Shown piece by piece: positions 3,083 through 61,850 of a stretch of 64,000 bases of DNA; position 1 is the stretch's first letter; the number at the start of each line of letters is the position of its first letter. Both the position numbers and the translations under genes were made by a program. The DNA lies in NCBI RefSeq assembly GCF_900086705.1, contig NZ_LT575483.1, positions 1,259,534 through 1,323,533 of the forward strand, given 5' to 3'. The notes below the pieces were generated by a model. It had not been told where the DNA came from. It saw only the letters and a list, made by a program, of their open reading frames with translations, and searched no databases. The DNA is from Massilibacillus massiliensis (lineage in GTDB: Bacteria > Bacillota > Negativicutes > FLKF01).

Positions 3083-3180
3083 TGACTGCAGAATTATTAT
3101 TATGCAGTCAATTTTGGTATTACTTTTTTCGAAAGCACTTATGTGATTTATGATGTTGACTTCAGAATCATAAATCCACA
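3083..3180. repeat. two further inverted repeats in the 2922-3226 gap
   Basis: TGACTGCA (3083-3090) pairs with TGCAGTCA (3103-3110). TGTGATTTATGAT (3142-3154) pairs with ATCATAAATCCACA (3167-3180) with one bulge. They lie between the terminator at 2950 and the DUF4926-like gene. No coding frame with a ribosome site is visible in this gap. The role is unknown. Confidence 0.4.
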
Positions 3181-3226
3181 CATTTCTGCAGTGAGTTAGG
3201 TCAGCTTTTTGCAGTGACTTATGAAA

Positions 3227-3427
3227 TCACTTACTGAATTTTGCAATTTCATCTGGAGGAAGCACTATCTGTGCTTTCGTGTTACCGTTTTCATCGACAA
3301 ATTCAACTTCGTAAGCTTCATTTGGCTCTGTATACACCATTACGATAGCCCCAATGTCTCCTCTTTTTACTCCTTCATTCTCATAATCTCTCAATAGTAC
3401 GACCGTGTCATACTCTGCAAATTTCAT
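3227..3427 (-). CDS. DUF4926-like protein, likely immunity partner
   Basis: A 66-residue acidic protein, MKFAEYDTVVLLRDYENEGV onward, with the G-D-I-G-A-I-V and Y-E-V-E-F-V-D-E-N-G motifs and a C-terminal L-P-P-D-E-I typical of DUF4926. The fold is a small SH3-like beta-barrel. It lies 11 bases downstream of a DUF6883-like toxin tip and would be co-transcribed with it. DUF4926 genes are commonly found directly after DUF6883 genes, so an immunity role is a fair inference, not shown. It has no signal peptide, which fits a cytoplasmic antidote. A terminator follows at 2950. Confidence 0.75.
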   Translation of the reverse strand: MKFAEYDTVVLLRDYENEGVKRGDIGAIVMVYTEPNEAYEVEFVDENGNTKAQIVLPPDEIAKFSK

Positions 3428-3438
3428 CCTGCATCACC

Positions 3439-4008
3439 TTACTTTACATATATTGTAGTCATTTCGGGAGTAGTTGATCCTGGCTTAAATATCCATCCAG
3501 TTCTCACTGTTGCTGTATTTCCATTTGGTCCAGTTATCTGCATATCAACAGTGTACCTTTGACCATATTGGTCAGCTTTTCCGAGAATCGCTTCACTCTG
3601 AGGCAATTTTTCTTGCACTTGTTTCATCAGCGCATCAGCATTAGATTTGTTATATCCCAAAGCACTCTCAAATACTTTTGCCTTATTACCACCTACAGGA
3701 TGTTCTGGATTAAGTGCATAATCCGTCAACTTCCTTGGGTCAATTTTTGCACTCTCCATGTTTGGCAATGGATTCTTTGCTACAGCTTTACTCGCCCCAT
3801 TACTAGAGAAAATTTTACTAAAATCCTTTGAGAAGTTATATGCACCATTTGCAGTGGCACCTGCAGCATAAGCGGTCACGGTAGCTCCTGCTATTGCACC
3901 TACTCCTGTAGGCGATATAATAATGGTTCCTCCTGCTCCAGTTATGGTTACTAAAGTACCACCTACGACAAATGCTACATCTCCTAATGTTTTACCTACA
4001 TAATACAT
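3439..4008 (-). CDS. displaced toxin tip with DUF6883-like domain, 5' end cut by IS
   Basis: The frame opens directly at the IS3 edge, so the ATG at 4008 is an internal codon of the former gene and not a natural start; no ribosome site precedes it. Residues about 1-60 are Gly/Ala-rich and hydrophobic (VVGGTLVTITGAGGTIII), like the linker or translocation part of CdiA-type tips. Residues about 90-189 match, by recollection, DUF6883: KLTDYALNPEHPVGGNKAK, then GYNKSNADALMKQV and a C-terminal TVRTGWIF. The domain is a frequent C-terminal tip of polymorphic toxins. Together with 5213-6271 it made one frame before the IS landed. It is probably not exported now. Confidence 0.7.
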   Translation of the reverse strand: MYYVGKTLGDVAFVVGGTLVTITGAGGTIIISPTGVGAIAGATVTAYAAGATANGAYNFSKDFSKIFSSNGASKAVAKNPLPNMESAKIDPRKLTDYALNPEHPVGGNKAKVFESALGYNKSNADALMKQVQEKLPQSEAILGKADQYGQRYTVDMQITGPNGNTATVRTGWIFKPGSTTPEMTTIYVK

Positions 4009-4026
4009 TGGACTGTCAACAGTTTT

Positions 4027-4860
4027 TTAGACAACTTTTTTAAGGGTATTTATTCTATACTTCACCGGTGTTAGATATCCTAGTGAAGAATGAATCCTAT
4101 GATTGTTGAACCAATTTACATAATCAGCTAACTCAATCTGCAGATGGTTTAAGCTGTGAAAAGTCTGGTTCCTGATAAATTCTGTTTTGATTATTTTAAA
4201 TGTTGCTTCTGCCACTGCATTATCATAAGGACACCCTTTATGACTGAGAGAACGCTGAATTTCAAATGCTTCCAAGATTTCTTCAATGGTCCGATTTTTA
4301 AATTCGTTGCCACGGTCCGTGTGAAATATCTGGATATCTTTCAGATTTCCCCTTACAGTCTGAAATGCCTGTTTTACAAGGTCTGCTGTTTTATTACGTC
4401 CGGCACTGTAACCAATTATTTCTCTATTAAAGAGGTCAATAAGCACACAAATGTAGTTCCAGCTCATGCCGACTCTGACATATGTTAAATCGCTTACAAT
4501 AGCATTTCTATATGGTTGTTCACTGAACTGGCGGTCAACAACATTTTTGGTTTTTGATTCATTACAAGTATCCTTTTGAGGACGGAACTGGGCAGTCGTA
4601 TAACTTGAAATCAGTCCTTCCTGCCTCATGATTCTGCCGATGCGGCGGCGTGAAGCAATGATATTTCTATCTTTTAAATCTGATTTTATTTTTCGGGTTC
4701 CATAATTATTTCGGCTTGCTTTAAATATATCAACAATATTTGCCACCAGCTTAGATTCATCTGGATTTGCTTTTGCCTCATAATAATAGGTGCTTCTTGG
4801 AATTTGTAGGACTTTACACATTGCTGATACAGAGTATTTGTGGATATTGGCTTTAATCAC
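4027..4860 (-). CDS. IS3-family transposase OrfB (DDE integrase)
   Basis: The 277-residue protein holds an N-terminal HTH_21-type region (NNYGTRKIKSDL around 50-61) and the rve catalytic core. The DDE residues are visible as VSDLTYV (about 122), FHTDRGNEF (about 182) and the Glu in NAVAEATFKIIKTE (about 217). It starts at a GTG at 4860, two bases after the OrfA stop and in another frame. It may be made by coupling or frameshifting; I see no clear A6/A7 slippery run at the junction. It appears intact and full length for the family. Confidence 0.92.
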   Translation of the reverse strand: MIKANIHKYSVSAMCKVLQIPRSTYYYEAKANPDESKLVANIVDIFKASRNNYGTRKIKSDLKDRNIIASRRRIGRIMRQEGLISSYTTAQFRPQKDTCNESKTKNVVDRQFSEQPYRNAIVSDLTYVRVGMSWNYICVLIDLFNREIIGYSAGRNKTADLVKQAFQTVRGNLKDIQIFHTDRGNEFKNRTIEEILEAFEIQRSLSHKGCPYDNAVAEATFKIIKTEFIRNQTFHSLNHLQIELADYVNWFNNHRIHSSLGYLTPVKYRINTLKKVV

Positions 4861-4862
4861 AT

Positions 4863-5153
4863 TTACTTTCGTCCTAAGATCAGCGCTGCTTGCTTTAAAA
4901 TATCATTCTCCATTTCAAGATATTTGTTCCGTTTGCGAAGCTCAATCAGTTCTATCTGTTCAGTTGTAAGATTATCTTTCTCCTTGAAAGAGCCACTATT
5001 GTTAGCTTGCTGAATCCATTTGTCAAGCAAGGACGATGCGATATCATATTCACGAATAATGTCACACTTACGTTTTCCGTTATTATATAATTGTACAACT
5101 TGTTTTTTGAATTCGTCCGTATAGCTACGACGAGGGCGTTTTTCAACAGTCAT
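4863..5153 (-). CDS. IS3-family transposase OrfA (HTH protein)
   Basis: A 96-residue helix-turn-helix protein with the HTH_Tnp_1 pattern: RRSYTDEFKKQVVQLYNNGK at residues 8-27, DIASSLLDKWIQQ around 39-51, and a C-terminal leucine-zipper-like tail (LRKRNKYLEMENDILKQA). It binds the element ends and joins with OrfB as the full transposase. The start is an ATG at 5153 within the IS. Confidence 0.9.
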   Translation of the reverse strand: MTVEKRPRRSYTDEFKKQVVQLYNNGKRKCDIIREYDIASSLLDKWIQQANNSGSFKEKDNLTTEQIELIELRKRNKYLEMENDILKQAALILGRK

Positions 5154-5212
5154 GGGCCTAGCTCCTTTTGTTTTATTATTTTATTTTACATGCCCTTATA
5201 ATAACTGTCCAA

Positions 5213-6271
5213 TTAATTGTAGCCTATCCACATTCTAGGATTTGAACCATCTGCCATGTTAATTTGTACTGCACTCCAAGACATGTTTTCTATAGCCGAA
5301 GATCCTAAACCTTGAGCAATTGGCGCAAGTTCTTGTTTGTAAAATGCGTATATTCCTGTACTTTGAAATCTTTCCTTCATTTTGTCAAATAAGTTACTAT
5401 AATCATTATCCGATGTCTTATTTAAATCTCCTTTTATTGATTCTGGTACTGCAAAGTTTGGTTCTCCCTTCAGCGTTACTCCAAATTGGGTAACTTCTTT
5501 TAAATTATTGATTACATTTGCATTTAATTTTTTTTCATTTTCTCTATCTTTATCCAACCAATAATCTTCTACCTGTTGTACCGCTTCATTATATTCTTTC
5601 AAGGTGATACTTTTGTTTTCCAGCTTTGCTTTGAGTTCTTCTAATTCTTTTTGATACTTAGCATATTGTTCGTGATACAAGAAATTATTTTTCGTCTCAC
5701 TAACAGCTACACTTGCTCCAGTATTACTATCGCCACCTACAATTTTTGCTGCAACGCCTCCTATTAATGCACTGGCTATTTTCATTAGTCCTGGGTCTTT
5801 TATATTTTTCAGTTCATTCATGACGAGCTGATTGAAACCTGCTCCGGCGGCTCCTGATGCAAAGTCTCCACCACCAAGTTTCGCCATTAATCCCCCGGCA
5901 AAGGTATCTAATGCGATTTTTTCTGGACTACCTTCTTTTAATCCTAAATCACCAATTGCTTTAAATACTACTTCACCAAACAGTCCAGCTAATTCCTGCT
6001 GTTCTTGGACTTTCTTCTTATCAAATATTTTTCCTAATGCATTTAGGGCTTGCTCTGTATTACGACTTAATTCGCTTAAATCTTGGTTGGGGTTATCCCG
6101 CACTTCGATCGTACCGTCTGCAATCGCGGATTTTGTTGTACTATCGGTGCTGTCAGATGCTGTTACGCTAGGATTTGGCGTCCATCCTTGATTTTTTTCT
6201 TCTACGCCTCTACCATTGCTATAATTTACACCACTATTTTTTGCTTGCTGTATATTCTGCTCTGTTTTCAA
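5213..6271 (-). CDS. displaced fhaB pre-toxin fragment with new tip, 3' end cut by IS
   Basis: Residues about 12-190 are near-identical to fhaB residues about 3035-3220: SGVNY, NPNQDLSELSRNTEQALNAL, FASGAAGAGFNQLVMNELK, and SETKNNFLYHEQ at the tip junction. After the junction the sequence diverges into a Lys/Glu-rich helical stretch (KYQKELEELKAKLENKSITL) and ends W-I-G-Y-N with a stop made of flanking bases beside the IS. The reported start is a TTG with no matching ribosome site; in the ancestral gene it is an internal Leu codon out of frame. No export signal remains, so it is probably silent raw material for tip exchange. Confidence 0.65.
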   Translation of the reverse strand: MKTEQNIQQAKNSGVNYSNGRGVEEKNQGWTPNPSVTASDSTDSTTKSAIADGTIEVRDNPNQDLSELSRNTEQALNALGKIFDKKKVQEQQELAGLFGEVVFKAIGDLGLKEGSPEKIALDTFAGGLMAKLGGGDFASGAAGAGFNQLVMNELKNIKDPGLMKIASALIGGVAAKIVGGDSNTGASVAVSETKNNFLYHEQYAKYQKELEELKAKLENKSITLKEYNEAVQQVEDYWLDKDRENEKKLNANVINNLKEVTQFGVTLKGEPNFAVPESIKGDLNKTSDNDYSNLFDKMKERFQSTGIYAFYKQELAPIAQGLGSSAIENMSWSAVQINMADGSNPRMWIGYN

Positions 6272-56076: not shown

Positions 56077-56152
56077 AAAAAGATACCGACTTAGGCTAAG
56101 AACTCTGTGTAAGCACGCTTATTTCACAGAGTTTAGCAAGTCGGTATTTTTT
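56077..56152 (-). terminator. long terminator hairpin, member 3
   Basis: AAAAAGATACCGACTT pairs with AAGTCGGTATTTTT, and ACTCTGTG with CACAGAGT forms the top. The outer stem (ATACCGACTT / AAGTCGGTAT) is the same as in member 2 at 46596, while the loop is different. It ends the ABC transporter and dehydratase operon (minus) and lies about 30 bases after that stop codon. The 55898-56076 stretch holds the promoter of the MerR operon. Confidence 0.75.
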
Positions 56153-56181: not shown

Positions 56182-57357
56182 TTATTTGATCAATATTCGA
56201 TCCGAATGTTCATACACTTTTTCCGTAAAATCCTGTCCAATGCCAGGAAGTTCCGGAACCGTATAACGTCCATTGACCGGTTGATAATTATGGACACAAA
56301 GCTCTGCATACTCTGGTAACAGGGTTTTTTGATGATGTTCATGAATACAGAAGTTTGGTATAGCGGTTTCGGCGTGAATTGCCGCTGCTTCTGCAACACC
56401 GGTGCCAGCTACATGCGCCTGTACCGTTACTTCATAGGCGTGTGCTAAATCAGCAATTTTCTTGAATTCTGAAATCCCGCCGCAGGAACCGATATCCGGC
56501 TGAATCACATCAATTGATCGATCTGCAAGGAAAGGCAGATAACCCCATCGTGTATAAATTCTTTCCCCTGAAGCAATCGGTATATTGATTTTCTCCTTTG
56601 CTTTTTGCAATAGTTTAGGATTTAACGGCGTATTAATTTCCTCATAAAAGAAAATATTATATTCTTCAATCGCTTTCGCAAACTGAATCGCACTTACCAT
56701 ATCCGTGTTGGCATGATTTTCAACAATAATATCGATATCCGGTCCAACAGCTTCTCTGATCGCTCTAACGCGTTCCACGCCACGCTTTAATATTGCATTC
56801 GGTAATGGACCTTCAAGATGTACCCCCTGCGTACTGCCATTTTCATTCAGCGCTAACACGTCTACTTTAACAGCATCATATCCTTCGGCAACTGCCTTTA
56901 ATGCTTCTTCAGCATATTCTTCTTTTTTTCCCTTAGGCTCTCTTTTCGTACCCCAGCCAAATTGAATTTGTGATGCATATACTCTTAAATCTTCGCGCGA
57001 TTTTCCTCCCAGCAATTGATATAAAGGCAATCCCAAGGCTTTTCCTTTTATATCCCACAACGCCAAATCAAGCGCACTCATACCGGAAAAAACTACGGTT
57101 CCGCCCCCTTGCCCCCAAAAAGTCTTTTTCAAGAATTTTTCCCAGATAAATTCGGTATTAAAAGGATCTAACCCTATAATCAAACGGGATAGATCTCTGA
57201 TCATTCCCGCTGCGGCACTTCCACCTACACCATATGCCATCCCAGCTTCACCGACACCATAGATACCTTCGTCTGTATCAACCTTTACCAGAACAGGTCT
57301 CTGTCCCGAATTTTTACGTTGATGTACATGAAAAACTTCTACTTGTGTAATTTTCAT
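56182..57357 (-). CDS. enolase-superfamily sugar-acid dehydratase (MR/MLE group, DgoD/GlucD-like)
   Basis: A 391-residue protein with the N-terminal capping domain (1-125: TDEGIYGVGEAGMAYGVG, FWGQGGGTVVFSGMSALDLA) and the barrel domain. Metal ligands are in DIIVENHAN (Glu about 224), FFYEEINTP (Glu about 250) and ASGERIYT (Glu about 276). The catalytic His is in VQAHVAGTG (about 327), and YDAVKVDVLA (Lys about 169) sits where mandelate racemases have K-x-K. The pattern fits acid-sugar dehydratases such as galactonate dehydratase. It follows a sulfonate-type ABC transporter in the same operon; its start has GGAGAGGG. Confidence 0.88.
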   Translation of the reverse strand: MKITQVEVFHVHQRKNSGQRPVLVKVDTDEGIYGVGEAGMAYGVGGSAAAGMIRDLSRLIIGLDPFNTEFIWEKFLKKTFWGQGGGTVVFSGMSALDLALWDIKGKALGLPLYQLLGGKSREDLRVYASQIQFGWGTKREPKGKKEEYAEEALKAVAEGYDAVKVDVLALNENGSTQGVHLEGPLPNAILKRGVERVRAIREAVGPDIDIIVENHANTDMVSAIQFAKAIEEYNIFFYEEINTPLNPKLLQKAKEKINIPIASGERIYTRWGYLPFLADRSIDVIQPDIGSCGGISEFKKIADLAHAYEVTVQAHVAGTGVAEAAAIHAETAIPNFCIHEHHQKTLLPEYAELCVHNYQPVNGRYTVPELPGIGQDFTEKVYEHSDRILIK

Positions 57358-57379
57358 TTATACCCTCTCCTTTTTGTGT

Positions 57380-58150
57380 TTAATTTGCATAAATTTGATC
57401 TGTTGGTTCAACAGCCAAATCGTCCTCGTATTTCATAACTTTATTTAAAATAAATCTTTCAAAATAAGCAAAATTATTGTCTTTTACCCGTGGTCTAGCT
57501 AATGTAATTTTTTTATCGAGTGAAATCTCTCCATCTTCAATCAGAACTACACGATCAGCCAAATACACTGCCTCTCCTACATCATGTGTTACCAAAACAA
57601 CCGTAAAGCCCTGTTCTTTCCATAGTTTTTCAATTAAAATCTGCATCTGAATGCGTGTTAACGCATCAAGTGCGCCCAAAGGTTCATCTAACAATAGTAA
57701 TTTAGGCGCACCAATTAAGGCTCTTGCCAAGGAGACTCTCTGCTTCTGACCACCAGATAAAACTGCTGGCCACGCACTTGCTTTATCAGATAAATTGACT
57801 GCCTGCAAAGCCGCCTGTGCCTTTTCTTTACTGCGTTCTTTTGATCCTAAAGCAACATTCTCCCCGACAGTTTTCCAGGGCAATAATCTTGCTTCCTGGA
57901 ATAAATAGCGCACCGCAGGATTGATTTTTTTAACTTCATGATCCCCTAAGACAATGCTTCCGCTCGTCGGTGTTTCAAGATGAGAAATCAGTCGCAGCAA
58001 TGTACTCTTCCCACAGCCGCTTTGCCCAACCAAGGCTACAAATTCACCTGGCTCTACCTGAAGATTGATGTCTTTCAATACTTCTGTCGCACCGAAAAAT
58101 TTACGCAAATTTTTTATTTCTATTTTAAAACCCTGTGCTTTTTCACTCAT
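57380..58150 (-). CDS. ABC transporter ATPase, SsuB/TauB type
   Basis: I use the ATG at 58150 (TAGGTG seven bases upstream); a GTG three codons earlier is less likely. The 256-residue protein has Walker A as VGQSGCGKSTLL (about 38-49), a Q-loop at YLFQEARLLPW (about 83), the signature LSGGQKQRVSLARAL (about 130), Walker B as LLLLDEPLGALD (about 152) and the H-loop VLVTHDVGEAV. It drives uptake of aliphatic sulfonate, nitrate or similar anions. Its upstream sequence is nearly the same as that of the permease gene. Confidence 0.92.
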   Translation of the reverse strand: MSEKAQGFKIEIKNLRKFFGATEVLKDINLQVEPGEFVALVGQSGCGKSTLLRLISHLETPTSGSIVLGDHEVKKINPAVRYLFQEARLLPWKTVGENVALGSKERSKEKAQAALQAVNLSDKASAWPAVLSGGQKQRVSLARALIGAPKLLLLDEPLGALDALTRIQMQILIEKLWKEQGFTVVLVTHDVGEAVYLADRVVLIEDGEISLDKKITLARPRVKDNNFAYFERFILNKVMKYEDDLAVEPTDQIYAN

Positions 58151-58162
58151 TTTCTTCACCTA

Positions 58163-58936
58163 CTATACTTTTCGATAATTATCATGCCATCGCAGGATTC
58201 TCTTTTCGATAAGTCCTGCAGCAAAATCGGAGAGACTCCCCAGCAGTGCATAAATAATTAAACTGAGCACAATAACGTCCATAAGCATAAATTCTCTTGC
58301 ATTTGTCGCCATAAAGCCAATCCCAGATTTCGCAGCAACCGTTTCTGCAACGATCAAGGTTAACCACATACGTCCCAAAGATTGACGAATGCCAATCATG
58401 ATAGAGGACATTGCACCCGGGAAAATAATATCTTTAAACAATTCAAACCGCGTTAAGCCATATGTTTTTCCCATTTCAATCAGACTGCTATCAATATAAC
58501 GTATCCCATGAAATGTATTTAAATAGATTGGGAAAAAAGTTCCCAGAGAAATTAACACGACCTTCGCTGTTTCGCCAATACCAAACCAAATCAAAATCAA
58601 TGGCAGCAACGCAAGATGCGGCACATTGCGAATCATTTGGATCGGTGTATTCAAAATCTTTTCTGCCAGTACAAACTGTCCATTGATGATCCCTAGCAAA
58701 AAGCCAATTGCACCACCAATGAGAAATCCCGCCATTGCTCGCATAGCACTAATTTCAATGTTTTCCGCCAATGTTCCATCTTTCATTAATCTATGCACCG
58801 CACTGAACACCTCACCGGGCGGCGGAAATAAACTTGCACTATTTTGATCCAAAGTCGTAATAAACCAAAAAATGAATACAACCGCCGGAATTGTCCAAGC
58901 AAGCATAAGATCAGTAAATCGAAAATTATCTTTCAT
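58163..58936 (-). CDS. ABC transporter permease, SsuC/TauC type
   Basis: The ATG at 58936 follows AGGTGAG. The 257-residue protein has about six membrane segments (LAWTIPAVVFIFWFITTL first) and the BPD_transp_1 EAA loop near GKTYGLTRFELFKDIIFPGA (about 156-175), where the ATPase docks. It pairs with the ATPase gene 12 bases downstream and the binding protein 17 bases upstream. Confidence 0.92.
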   Translation of the reverse strand: MKDNFRFTDLMLAWTIPAVVFIFWFITTLDQNSASLFPPPGEVFSAVHRLMKDGTLAENIEISAMRAMAGFLIGGAIGFLLGIINGQFVLAEKILNTPIQMIRNVPHLALLPLILIWFGIGETAKVVLISLGTFFPIYLNTFHGIRYIDSSLIEMGKTYGLTRFELFKDIIFPGAMSSIMIGIRQSLGRMWLTLIVAETVAAKSGIGFMATNAREFMLMDVIVLSLIIYALLGSLSDFAAGLIEKRILRWHDNYRKV

Positions 58937-58952
58937 TTTTCTCACCTAAACT

Positions 58953-59993
58953 TTAATACTTTTTAAATTTGCTGATCTCAGCATCAAAGGAACGATCAAA
59001 TAGACCTGTAATATCAATCCCGCTTTTCAGCAGGCCTATCTTGCCAAACATATTCACAATATCTTGCTCCGAAGCAATTGTCGCCTCATCAACTGGTACA
59101 ACATGCGTTTTCGTTTGTGCTTCTTCTTCTTGATATTGTTTTAAATAGTCCGATGGTTTTTGATTAATCTGCGGGCCATAAATTTCTGCCCATTCTTTCG
59201 GATGCTGTCTTGCCCACTCATTTGCCTCATTGAACCGGGATAAATAATCTAAAATTGCCGCATGCTTTTTCGGATCTTGTATCGCCGCTGGTGTTGCATA
59301 CCAATAAAAATCTCCGGAAAGAATTTGCGCCGCTGATTGTAAAGTTACAGCACCCTTTTCATGTGCAGAACGGATAGAATTTCCATAGCTCGCTAAAGCA
59401 TCCACTTCTCCTGTGAGAAGCGCAGATAATCCATCAGAAGTGGACATCGGAATCGTTTCTGCATCGCTCCATGCCAAACCGGCATTTTCTAGCATCTTCG
59501 CTAAAAAATAATGTGCTGTTGTACTTTTTACATAAGCGATTTTCTTTCCTTTCAAATCAGCAACTGATTTTATCGGAGAATTAGCGGCTACGACTAACTC
59601 CTGATCTAAAGTTGATGATTTTTTCGTTGCAATAATTTTTAGATTACCACCATTTTTTGCTTGCGAAGCAAAAATAGGTGGAATCTGGCTGCCTGTTCCC
59701 AAATCCAGCTGATTTGCCGCCATTGCCTCTAAGACTAAATTTCCGCCTTGCATCACGTGAAATTCTACTTTATAAGGGGTTTTATCAAGTCCGGCAGCCG
59801 CAATAATTGCCTGCCCGTTTGCACCTGATGCTGCGCCTACCCGAATTACAACATCAGAAAGATCACCGCCTTTTTCAGCAGTCGCCGCTGCATCTTTACT
59901 TTTTTCAGTGTTTGACGCAGAATCTCCGCAGCCTGCAAAAATCAATGGGAATAATAAGAATACAAATACTAAAAATGCCTTTGTTTTTTTCAT
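58953..59993 (-). CDS. ABC transporter substrate-binding lipoprotein, SsuA/NMT1 type
   Basis: The ATG at 59993 (GGAGG eight bases before it) gives a 346-residue lipoprotein: a signal MKKTKAFLVFVFLLFPL, then the lipobox FAGC with Cys22. The mature protein binds an organic anion; motifs VVIRVGAASGANGQAII and LDLGTGSQIPPIFA and KKIAYVKSTTAHYFL (about 160) match the sulfonate/nitrate-binding family. It is the first gene of the ssuA-C-B-dehydratase operon. The ligand is unknown, and the dehydratase gene suggests a sulfonated or otherwise acidic sugar. Confidence 0.9.
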   Translation of the reverse strand: MKKTKAFLVFVFLLFPLIFAGCGDSASNTEKSKDAAATAEKGGDLSDVVIRVGAASGANGQAIIAAAGLDKTPYKVEFHVMQGGNLVLEAMAANQLDLGTGSQIPPIFASQAKNGGNLKIIATKKSSTLDQELVVAANSPIKSVADLKGKKIAYVKSTTAHYFLAKMLENAGLAWSDAETIPMSTSDGLSALLTGEVDALASYGNSIRSAHEKGAVTLQSAAQILSGDFYWYATPAAIQDPKKHAAILDYLSRFNEANEWARQHPKEWAEIYGPQINQKPSDYLKQYQEEEAQTKTHVVPVDEATIASEQDIVNMFGKIGLLKSGIDITGLFDRSFDAEISKFKKY

Positions 59994-60045: not shown

Positions 60046-60077
60046 AGAGACCAATTCCTAAAAAGGAATTGGTCTCT
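60046..60077 (-). terminator. intrinsic terminator of the two-component operon
   Basis: AGAGACCAATTCCT pairs perfectly with AGGAATTGGTCTCT around AAAA. On the minus strand it is followed by seven T residues. It lies about 150 bases after the response-regulator stop and before the transporter operon. It could also act as an attenuator for that operon; the sequence does not separate the two. Confidence 0.8.
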
Positions 60078-60226
60078 AGTTTTCTAGTCAACCAAACTAT
60101 CATTTTTCATATCATAAACGATCTATATTCTATTTGTCAATATCTATTTACTGCTTATTTCCGCCAAATATTCAGCTCTGCTTTTCTCCATGCATTTTAC
60201 CTGCGAAATCAAACACCAAATCGACT

Positions 60227-60865
60227 TTATTGCTCTACCATACCATTTTTATATGCAAACGCAATCAATTGCATCCTGTTCTGTAAATGTAATTTATCCA
60301 AAATATTGCGCAGGTGATTTTTGACTGTGCTTTCACTGATATATAAAGTTTCACTGATTTCTCTATTGCTAAGCCCCTGGCTGATGAGTTGCAAAACTTC
60401 CTTTTCTCGTTCCGACAATCTACTGTCTAAAACAACCTGCTTCTGCCCGGAAAATTCCTGCAGAATTTTAGTTGCAAGCACTCGTGATATCGGAACTTCG
60501 CCTTGCGCGATACTCACGATATAATCCAGCCAGTATTCCGGCTCCATATTTTTTAATAAATATCCTTGCGCTCCACGTTTAATAGCCTCAAAAAAATCCT
60601 GCACATCATCCGATACACTCAGCATAATAATTTTTATATGCGGCATCGCTGATTTAATTTTTTCGGTAGCCTCAAGACCATCACCATTCGGCATACGAAT
60701 ATCCATTAAAATCAATTCTGGCATAAGCTGCGTCGCCTTTTCAACAGCCTCTATTCCGTTGGTTGCCTCACCGACAATCTCAAAAATCGGATTTGCAGAA
60801 AGAATACTTACAATGCCCCTTCGCGATAAAAAGTGATCATCTACAATCAATACTTTTATATTCAC
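60227..60865 (-). CDS. NarL/FixJ-type response regulator
   Basis: A 212-residue regulator with a receiver domain (1-120: IKVLIVDDHFLSRRGIVSIL, phospho-acceptor Asp in LILMDIRMPNGDG at about 54, conserved Lys near LLKNMEPEYW) and a LuxR-type HTH (about 145-210: LSEREKEVLQLISQGLSNRE, ISESTVKNHLRNILDKLHLQ). Its start overlaps the kinase gene stop by four bases, so they are coupled. The target genes are unknown; the transporter operon downstream is a candidate. Confidence 0.92.
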   Translation of the reverse strand: MNIKVLIVDDHFLSRRGIVSILSANPIFEIVGEATNGIEAVEKATQLMPELILMDIRMPNGDGLEATEKIKSAMPHIKIIMLSVSDDVQDFFEAIKRGAQGYLLKNMEPEYWLDYIVSIAQGEVPISRVLATKILQEFSGQKQVVLDSRLSEREKEVLQLISQGLSNREISETLYISESTVKNHLRNILDKLHLQNRMQLIAFAYKNGMVEQ

Positions 60866-61716
60866 GACGCCAGCTCCTTTTTCTTATACTTCATAACGGT
60901 CACCGTTGTCCCACTGCCGGGGATGCTATCCAGCTTAAGCTCGGCTTTGATTGACTGAATATCCTGCTCCAAGAGTTTATAACCAAAAGAATCTTTCTGA
61001 CAAAGACTCTTTTTTGCTACAAATCCTTTTCCGTTATCAGCAATGGTCAATTTAAAATTTCCACCACTTTCACACAAACTGACATTCACCTGCGTCGCAG
61101 CGGCATGCTTACGAATATTGAACAATAATTCTTGAAAAATATGATATAACTGCTTGCATTCATACGGACTAAACGGAACTTTGCTGACACAATCGACAGA
61201 CAGATTCACCCTTGTACCCGTCTGCGTTTCATACTGCGCTAAGTGTGTTCGCATCGCAGAAACGAGATCAATATTATCTTCCGCCGCTGCGGTCTGCAAT
61301 GCAAAAATATGCTGTCTTAACTCGGTGTCCGCAAAACAAATTGCTTCCCGCAGATCATGAATCGAAGTCCATGGTTCCTTTGATTTTTTACAAGCAGTCT
61401 CAATCTCCATAATTTTTACATTCATGAAAAACAACGATTGAGCAATACTGTCATGCAAATCCCGAGCAATCCGATATCGTTCCTGTAAAACTGCCGTTTC
61501 TTGTTTCTCCTGCTGCAGTTTGCCATACAGATTTTCCATCAGCGAAAAAATACCATGAGAAAATAAAAAAAAGATGACACCCGTCAATATTGCCACCAAA
61601 ACATTGCCCCAGTCCATCGATATAACATATAAAAATTGGTGCCGAACAAATTCAGCCAGGCCAATACAAACAGCTGCTACAATCGCCGTAATCCATTTCA
61701 TTTTCGTAATATTCAT
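60862..61716 (-). CDS. NarX/LiaS-type sensor histidine kinase
   Basis: I choose the ATG at 61716 with TAGGAGGAAG before it; a longer frame to 61833 would run into repeat sequence. The 284-residue protein has two membrane segments (ITAIVAAVCIGLAEFV and WGNVLVAILTGVIFFLF), a HisKA_3 domain with the phospho-His in YRIARDLHDSIAQSL (about 95), and an HATPase domain (N box ELLFNIRKHAAA, about 190; G1 ADNGKGF; G2 GSGTTVTV). It has hardly any periplasmic sensor, so it probably senses within the membrane or with a partner. Confidence 0.88.
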   Translation of the reverse strand: MNITKMKWITAIVAAVCIGLAEFVRHQFLYVISMDWGNVLVAILTGVIFFLFSHGIFSLMENLYGKLQQEKQETAVLQERYRIARDLHDSIAQSLFFMNVKIMEIETACKKSKEPWTSIHDLREAICFADTELRQHIFALQTAAAEDNIDLVSAMRTHLAQYETQTGTRVNLSVDCVSKVPFSPYECKQLYHIFQELLFNIRKHAAATQVNVSLCESGGNFKLTIADNGKGFVAKKSLCQKDSFGYKLLEQDIQSIKAELKLDSIPGSGTTVTVMKYKKKELAS

Positions 61717-61802
61717 ATAACGCTTCCTCCTATAGCCCCCACTTTTCAGTCTGATTGTACTGGCAAATACTAAATATGTCAATAGAATGACAGCCATATA
61801 TG

Positions 61803-61850
61803 GACAGATAGGGCGCGGGTCGGTGATAAGCACTCATCTGCGTTGTTACA
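61803..61850. repeat. half copy R4 of the long palindrome, inverted
   Basis: GGACAGATAGGGCGCGGGTC and then GGTGATAAGCACTCATCTGC are the reverse complement of the right arm of R2 (GCAGATGAGTGCTTATCACC near 46940). The left arm and centre are missing. It lies 87 bases upstream of the kinase gene start, in the leader or promoter region. Confidence 0.6.

Follow-up and report, generated by a model that had tools for sequence, protein, structure and literature searches.

For fermentative anaerobes, the oxygen-free routes to sulfonate sulfur described so far are chiefly those of glycyl-radical enzymes and of SuyAB-type lyases, the latter being related to altronate dehydratase. The ssuEADCB system of aerobes combines an ATP-binding cassette (ABC) importer with the oxygen-dependent SsuD and with SsuE under sulfur-type control, and leaders such as the S-adenosylmethionine (SAM)-I riboswitch (S box) place mutually exclusive antiterminator and terminator structures before sulfur genes. 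A further precedent was published in 2025. Parts of that account describe SfcF, an enzyme with PF13378 and PF02746 domains, as the sulfogalactonate dehydratase of a sulfofucolytic Entner-Doudoroff pathway in Paracoccus, with a dehydrogenase, a lactonase, an aldolase, SlcC/ComC/SuyAB and an ABC importer encoded nearby, and state that SuyAB converts sulfolactate to pyruvate and sulfite (PMC12421959). The operon described here lies at positions 56182-59993 of a 64,000-nucleotide stretch of Massilibacillus massiliensis DNA (the window; contig NZ_LT575483.1, positions 1,259,534 to 1,323,533) and contains four minus-strand genes, which encode an SsuA-C-B-type ABC importer and then an MR/MLE enolase-superfamily enzyme, behind a short leader RNA.

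The operon is like ssuEADCB in its SsuA-, SsuC- and SsuB-type proteins and its sulfur-type control, and differs in lacking SsuD and SsuE and in having an enolase-superfamily enzyme in the enzyme slot. The enzyme shares with SfcF the two domains, a nearby importer and, as proposed here, a sulfonated substrate. It stands alone, however, whereas SfcF has the partners named above in the parts of the account that describe it, and the likeness is one of family and not of the SfcF sequence. With SuyAB it would share the type of reaction but not the protein family. The leader follows the SAM-I type in its mutually exclusive structures, and differs in that its hairpin has only 31 nt and has no Rfam match at gathering score. 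The intergenic gaps, in order of transcription, are 7, 3 and 22 nt, which indicates a tight operon, and the following features were recognised.

60111-60140, minus strand: promoter TTGACA-18-TATGAT, 11/12 consensus positions
60069-60099, minus strand: 31-nt leader hairpin, antiterminator-like, 44.5 bits with model R1 (its computed fold agrees with the structure in the model, z -3.65)
60046-60077, minus strand: intrinsic terminator in the leader, 14-pair stem and T run, sharing sequence with the 3' strand of the hairpin
58953-59993, minus strand: SsuA-type substrate-binding lipoprotein (SBP), Pfam NMT1 / Phosphonate-bd
58163-58945, minus strand: SsuC-type permease, Pfam BPD_transp_1, best NCBIfam model SsuC
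57380-58159, minus strand: SsuB-type ATPase, Pfam ABC_tran, best NCBIfam model SsuB
56182-57357, minus strand: MR/MLE enzyme of the enolase superfamily and of dehydratase type, a candidate for a sulfo-lyase or a sulfo-sugar-acid dehydratase, Pfam MR_MLE_N and MR_MLE_C
about 56083-56149, minus strand: inverted repeat and T run, likely operon end (read from the sequence with approximate limits; not listed by the terminator scanner)

Coordinates, gene order and domains bear out the earlier note, which had placed SsuA-C-B and an MR/MLE dehydratase in a single operon, and the monooxygenase that it had reported missing is indeed absent from the operon. Its single terminator has to be amended, because the inverted repeat and T run after the enzyme gene are preceded by a second terminator (60046-60077) between the promoter and ssuA.

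The leader RNA is the strongest evidence for the purpose of the operon. Upstream of ssuA the promoter (60140-60111) is followed by the hairpin (60099-60069) and by the terminator (60077-60046), which uses the 3' strand of the hairpin, and all three elements stand ahead of the first gene, as in a terminator-antiterminator leader. A matching arrangement precedes ssuA in L001-L005, L010, L015 and L020. Double changes were counted at 8 of 10 pairs, in 25 cells against 8.7 in shuffles, in 19 sequences (alignment A2) chosen by a pattern that requires the inner four-pair stem, by which the inner pairing is partly a matter of selection; the pattern did not demand the outer stem, which was included in the count. 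In 123 matches (alignment A5, fitted to model R1) there were 212 double-change cells against 58 in shuffles. The covariance model R1 matched 86 of 380 Negativicutes genomes at E<=0.05, with up to 17 copies per genome and six matches in the genome of the window, and a plain 18-base pattern gave 19 matches in 17 of the 380 genomes, compared with 3 when the pattern was reversed. After removal of the 11 weakest of the 123 matches, a terminator was found to start within 6 nt of the inner stem in 107 of 112 copies (33.3 expected in shuffles), and a promoter-like sequence was present within 64 nt upstream in 57 of them (4.0 expected); a single weak match was obtained from 40 control regions in these genomes. 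At gathering score Rfam had no match in the window and the leader element matched no Rfam family in the scanned loci, where only SAM and thiamine pyrophosphate (TPP) riboswitches were found. Weak matches to the leader in a permissive scan (the best being MCS4, 32.5 bits against 56) were below the curated scores and mutually inconsistent and were discarded as chance.

The genes behind the leader are largely those of sulfur metabolism. Leader regions were picked for spread among the R1 matches listed (95) and joined by two further loci to make 97, and 92 of these gave a usable, non-duplicate first gene. The first genes belong to PALP (12), Cys_Met_Meta_PP (11), SBP_bac_3 (7), Phosphonate-bd (7), NMT1 (6), DUF2325 (6), DUF2292 (5), BPD_transp_1 (5), SBP_bac_11 (4), glycyl-radical PFL-like (3), DUF1847 (3), ThiS (3) and NIR_SIR (2), each of which has at most one member among 75 control genes of the same genomes (25 of the 113 control families were listed, among them all those with at least two members, and the unlisted ones have at most one each). 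Representatives scored over NCBIfam cut-offs as cysK (cysteine synthase A, 472 against 351), homocysteine synthase (755 against 726) and sulfate-binding protein (477 against 288). Predicted HpsG-type (2S)-3-sulfopropanediol glycyl-radical enzymes stand behind the leader in L205, L221 and L224 (1507, 1555 and 1545 bits, cut-off 1000); HpsG is a dihydroxypropanesulfonate sulfolyase, as given in parts of its published description (PMC12890257), and by this assignment these genes link the leader to anaerobic sulfonate cleavage. Nitrogenase-like and RuBisCO-like genes also occur, and are probably sulfur salvage enzymes (methylthio-alkane reductase, MtnW-like). Genes outside sulfur metabolism were found as well, namely SDF symporters, components of energy-coupling factor (ECF) transporters and TonB-type receptors.

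Several leader copies were seen beside other transporter and sulfur genes. Further copies in the same genome (L242, L145; C6:3191360, 3266583, 3267009) stand before an O-acetylhomoserine (OAH)-sulfhydrylase-like gene and, arranged in tandem, ahead of a DUF2292 gene. A second strong copy (L096, C6:3147155 on; 3156-3186, 39.8 bits) is followed at 3415-6165 by another NitT/TauT-type importer of permease, ATPase and SBP, by reading of the sequences. In genomes G142 and G143 (L188:301-1674 and L192:285-1655) the leader precedes a class-III aminotransferase adjoining a NitT/TauT-type importer; this may be a taurine aminotransferase, an identification that NCBIfam did not give.

A search with R1 of 22 sources, including Synergistota and the loci of sister enzymes, gave matches only in the window, in L096 and at weak places in L083, and no match was found in L006-L009, L011-L014, L016-L018, L046, L047, L079-L082, L084 or L085. 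The leader occurs in 19 of 291 Clostridia genomes at E<=0.01. By reading of the sequences, cysK-like, OAH-sulfhydrylase-like, NifB-like, NifH-like and URO-D-like genes lie behind 15 Clostridia loci, and the leader there also precedes genes for surface proteins like DUF4430, one gene resembling MoeA, and genes of phage type, the last with a leader-like hairpin and terminator in L302, L303 and L306, so that outside the Negativicutes the leader may be less specific for sulfur genes.

The operon itself is conserved. A scan of named genome contigs placed a related enzyme at 59 loci, and at E<=1e-150 the enzyme is present in 15 of the 380 Negativicutes genomes, including that of the window; these genomes were matched to the loci that were read, and named contigs to genome handles (for example L001 to G089), by coordinates. 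Directly before the enzyme gene stands ssuCB in 12 of the 15, and a recognisable ssuA accompanies it in 11 of these 12 (it is split into two frames in L005, and L083 has none). The other three carry a different NitT/TauT-type importer (L007 and L080, the latter also with an Ldh_2-type dehydrogenase) or an Opp-type importer (L079). The leader element is present in nine of the 12 Ssu-type operons, those of the window, L001-L005, L010, L015 and L020. In the Megasphaera operon (L013) two SAM riboswitches (89.2 and 86.2 bits, cut-off 44.4) take its place, directly downstream of aprA, cysD and cysN, each over an NCBIfam cut-off, which brings the operons with a sulfur-type leader of either kind to 10 of 12. 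Comparison between genomes establishes a conserved four-gene operon, a leader in which a conserved antiterminator-like hairpin overlaps a terminator, the recurrence of this leader before many genes of sulfur assimilation in relatives, and its replacement in one case by SAM riboswitches.

A DUF1847 gene lies directly 3' of the enzyme gene in Propionispora, Selenomonas, Megasphaera, G104 and one Zymomonas contig. Four such genes lie at the following positions.

L002:9217-9867: DUF1847 gene directly after the enolase-superfamily gene
L010:9173-9805: the same
L013:8959-9783: the same
L047:478-1131: the same

From its place directly after the enzyme gene, and behind the leader at other loci, DUF1847 is likely a sulfur-acquisition protein. 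Elsewhere in the genome of the window (L084:2558-8753, C6:3046557 on) an apparent operon contains a PatB-family C-S lyase (450 bits, cut-off 340), a polar amino-acid-type ABC importer, an M20 hydrolase and DUF1847, and is probably a sulfur-amino-acid salvage cluster.

An SBP, one permease and one ATPase in one operon make up an importer of the Ssu/NitT/TauT type, which is known to transport small oxyanions and sulfonates. The best NCBIfam models of all three proteins are those of Ssu, at 149 against 163.5 bits (SsuA_fam), 285 against 347 (SsuC) and 321 against 395 (SsuB), each below its cut-off, and the solved structure nearest to the SBP by sequence is the aliphatic sulfonate binding protein 2x26 (E 2.7e-25). 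The importer is therefore a relative of SsuABC and not certified SsuABC, and sulfonate binding is a prediction.

The enzyme has the N-terminal capping and C-terminal barrel domains of its superfamily, with PF02746 and PF13378 both over cut-off. Its closest solved structures are 2ox4 (E 3.2e-217), 2o56, 4e6m and 2gl5, each of which carries no more than a putative name, and a literature search on 2OX4, judged by titles and the beginnings of abstracts, found no paper on this enzyme. Alignment with Escherichia coli DgoD shows that K164, E213, H215, E239/E240, E265, D288 and H315 are conserved in the clade; these are the metal-ligand and catalytic positions, including the DgoD-type histidine pair, and with them the enzyme keeps the active site of an acid-sugar dehydratase. 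Domains and catalytic residues are thus shared with DgoD and the four structures. The clade differs from DgoD in having H12, Q19, R139, Q343 and K344, and the operon lacks dgoK and dgoA. These five residues also occur in most of the Lachnospirales sister enzymes, and more distant relatives have them rarely or not at all. In the enolase superfamily the N-terminal loop usually sets specificity, and the extra polar and basic residues of this loop would suit a second strong acid on the substrate. In the tree, 19 enzymes of Negativicutes and Synergistota form one clade (100/99), four Lachnospirales-type enzymes are its sister group (100/99), and the next outgroup is a Fusobacteriaceae enzyme (100/98) encoded beside an aldolase of the 2-keto-3-deoxy-6-phosphogluconate (KDPG) type.

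The absence of an oxygen-dependent SsuD route, which the earlier note had assumed for an anaerobe, extends to whole genomes. Bac_luciferase, the SsuD family, was found in none of 13 enzyme-bearing genomes (13 of the 15 Negativicutes genomes, this one included), and a control search was positive in 10 of 14 well-known genomes. Sulfite reduction is plausible in the genome of the window because it encodes three NIR_SIR (siroheme-reductase-type) proteins.

From these data it is very probable that the operon serves sulfur acquisition. With somewhat less assurance, it is probably a sulfur-scavenging set of anaerobic Negativicutes that couples leader-controlled import to enzymatic elimination from a sulfonated hydroxy-acid. 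Stabilisation of the hairpin should turn the genes on because hairpin and terminator exclude each other, and switching on is expected when sulfur is short because the targets of the leader are sulfur-acquisition genes. In sulfur shortage a small molecule or an RNA-binding protein would stabilise the hairpin, the terminator would be blocked, and ssuACB and the enzyme gene would be expressed. The SsuA-type protein would capture a small sulfonated hydroxy-carboxylate, the presumed class of substrate, for uptake by the importer. Such a substrate would need a proton on the carbon alpha to its carboxylate and a leaving group on the beta carbon; the MR/MLE enzyme would remove the proton to give a metal-stabilised enolate and would expel the group on the neighbouring carbon. 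The most likely leaving group would be sulfite, as in conversion of sulfolactate to pyruvate and sulfite, by which the enzyme would fill the slot held in aerobes by SsuD; the next possibility would be water, lost from a sulfo-sugar acid (sulfogalactonate, for example) whose C-S bond would be cleaved elsewhere. Released sulfite would be reduced to sulfide for cysteine synthesis. Sulfite elimination is the simplest reading of a self-contained sulfur operon, and direct action of the enzyme as a sulfo-lyase is possible, if a little short of probable. The wider proposal, that the leader is a new sulfur-responsive RNA class (either a small riboswitch or an RNA bound by an antitermination protein) in charge of a sulfur regulon in Negativicutes and some Clostridia and that the enzyme is at once the first C-S lyase of its superfamily and an oxygen-free substitute for SsuD, is offered tentatively.

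Several observations weigh against a sulfur-releasing function. The operon does not include the partner enzymes known from the sulfofucose pathway (dehydrogenase, lactonase, aldolase, SuyAB). Among the 12 Ssu-type operons, L081 and L083 show neither the leader nor a SAM riboswitch. The same enzyme clade occurs, with the different NitT/TauT-type importer of L007 and L080, in 3 of 149 Synergistota genomes, and the loci of Synergistota and Acidaminococcales (L006-L009, L017, L018, L080) lack both the leader and any Rfam riboswitch; the sulfur argument therefore rests on the Ssu-type operons of Negativicutes. Some of these loci carry an Ldh_2 dehydrogenase, and for that of L008 (Synergistota) the best NCBIfam model is L-sulfolactate dehydrogenase at 233 against 500 bits, well below cut-off. 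Relatives with 66-69% identity (L011, L012, L014, L016) have no Ssu-type importer alongside, so that not every member has to act on a sulfonate. By reading of the sequences, the transporters of relatives are like the tripartite tricarboxylate type (TTT) in L014 and L016 and like Opp/Dpp in L011 and L079, and more distant relatives sit with phosphotransferase system (PTS)/GH4-like or TTT-like genes. L046, the closest outgroup in the tree (62% identity), adjoins an aldolase of the KDPG type or its galactonate counterpart (KDPGal; 135 bits, cut-off 156) and a putative sugar-acid kinase that matches no NCBIfam family, a setting that fits an ordinary sugar-acid dehydratase.

One alternative is an SfcF-like sulfo-sugar-acid dehydratase, by which an imported sulfonated aldonate would become a 2-keto-3-deoxy acid and the aldol and C-S cleavage steps would be encoded elsewhere. 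The dehydration of sulfogalactonate by SfcF, as given in parts of the published account (PMC12421959), is a precedent, both DgoD-type histidines and the metal ligands are kept, and the best NCBIfam model for the enzyme is galactonate dehydratase, although at 233.5 against a cut-off of 311 the enzyme is not assigned to that equivalog. An operon for sulfur limitation should nevertheless end in sulfur release, and the co-located dehydrogenase, lactonase, aldolase and SlcC/ComC/SuyAB or other sulfo-lyase were found neither in the operon nor in its Ssu-type counterparts, which leaves this alternative rather unlikely. The suggestion of the earlier note that a sulfonated acid sugar is taken up and dehydrated fares accordingly: the SfcF precedent from those parts of the account, the conserved operon and the sulfur-type regulation favour it, and it is only partly supported, as dehydration alone frees no sulfur and close relatives of the enzyme have other transporter types.

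Import and dehydration of an ordinary sugar acid without sulfur, by an SsuA-like protein that had drifted to carboxylates and a dehydratase of galactonate or a similar acid, would account for transporter scores that all fall below the Ssu cut-offs, for the aldolase beside the nearest outgroup enzyme and for the TTT-like carboxylate transporters that accompany sister enzymes, by reading of the sequences. It is unlikely in view of two unrelated sulfur-type RNA leaders across 10 of 12 genomes and of the aprA-cysD-cysN neighbours in Megasphaera. Still less can be said for another organosulfur acid, a sulfate ester or thioether of a hydroxy-acid from which sulfate or a thiol would be eliminated. 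By its chemistry the enzyme could eliminate any good leaving group from the carbon beta to the carboxylate, in L080 the next gene encodes a class I/II aminotransferase fold (PatB-like by reading of the sequence), and the PatB-family lyase of this genome shares its cluster with a DUF1847 gene, but the substrates known for this transporter type make such an acid very doubtful. That the leader hairpin is a mere part of the terminator of the upstream two-component gene, without regulatory role, is hardly credible, since, although the terminator lies about 150 nt past the stop codon of the response regulator and the stem-loop also reads in the opposite direction, a promoter stands between that gene and the hairpin, promoter-like sequences recur upstream of the other copies, the same element precedes sulfur genes elsewhere, and the covariation between its 5' and 3' strands already weakens this view.

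Directly upstream of the operon promoter, at 60227-61833, are a NarL-type response regulator and a HisKA_3 sensor kinase. The pair was considered as a member of the system and rejected, as none adjoins ssuA in the counterpart listings of L002-L005. The operon had no near match among 72,556 plasmid records.

The transporter family, the enzyme family and, from parts of the SfcF account (PMC12421959), the action of one enolase-superfamily dehydratase on a sulfonated acid sugar were already known. Literature searches found no enolase-superfamily dehydratase paired with a sulfonate ABC importer, no described leader of this kind for Negativicutes, no cysteine riboswitch paper and no DUF1847 paper, and within these searches two things are new, the joining of importer and enzyme in an operon under sulfur-type control and the leader RNA, the leader being the most novel part. 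If the proposed function is true, an operon of importer and enolase-superfamily enzyme adds a simple, radical-free route to sulfonate sulfur in fermentative anaerobes. The leader RNA provides a sequence handle on the whole sulfur regulon in Negativicutes, and groups the uncharacterised families DUF1847, DUF2292 and DUF2325 with sulfur acquisition.

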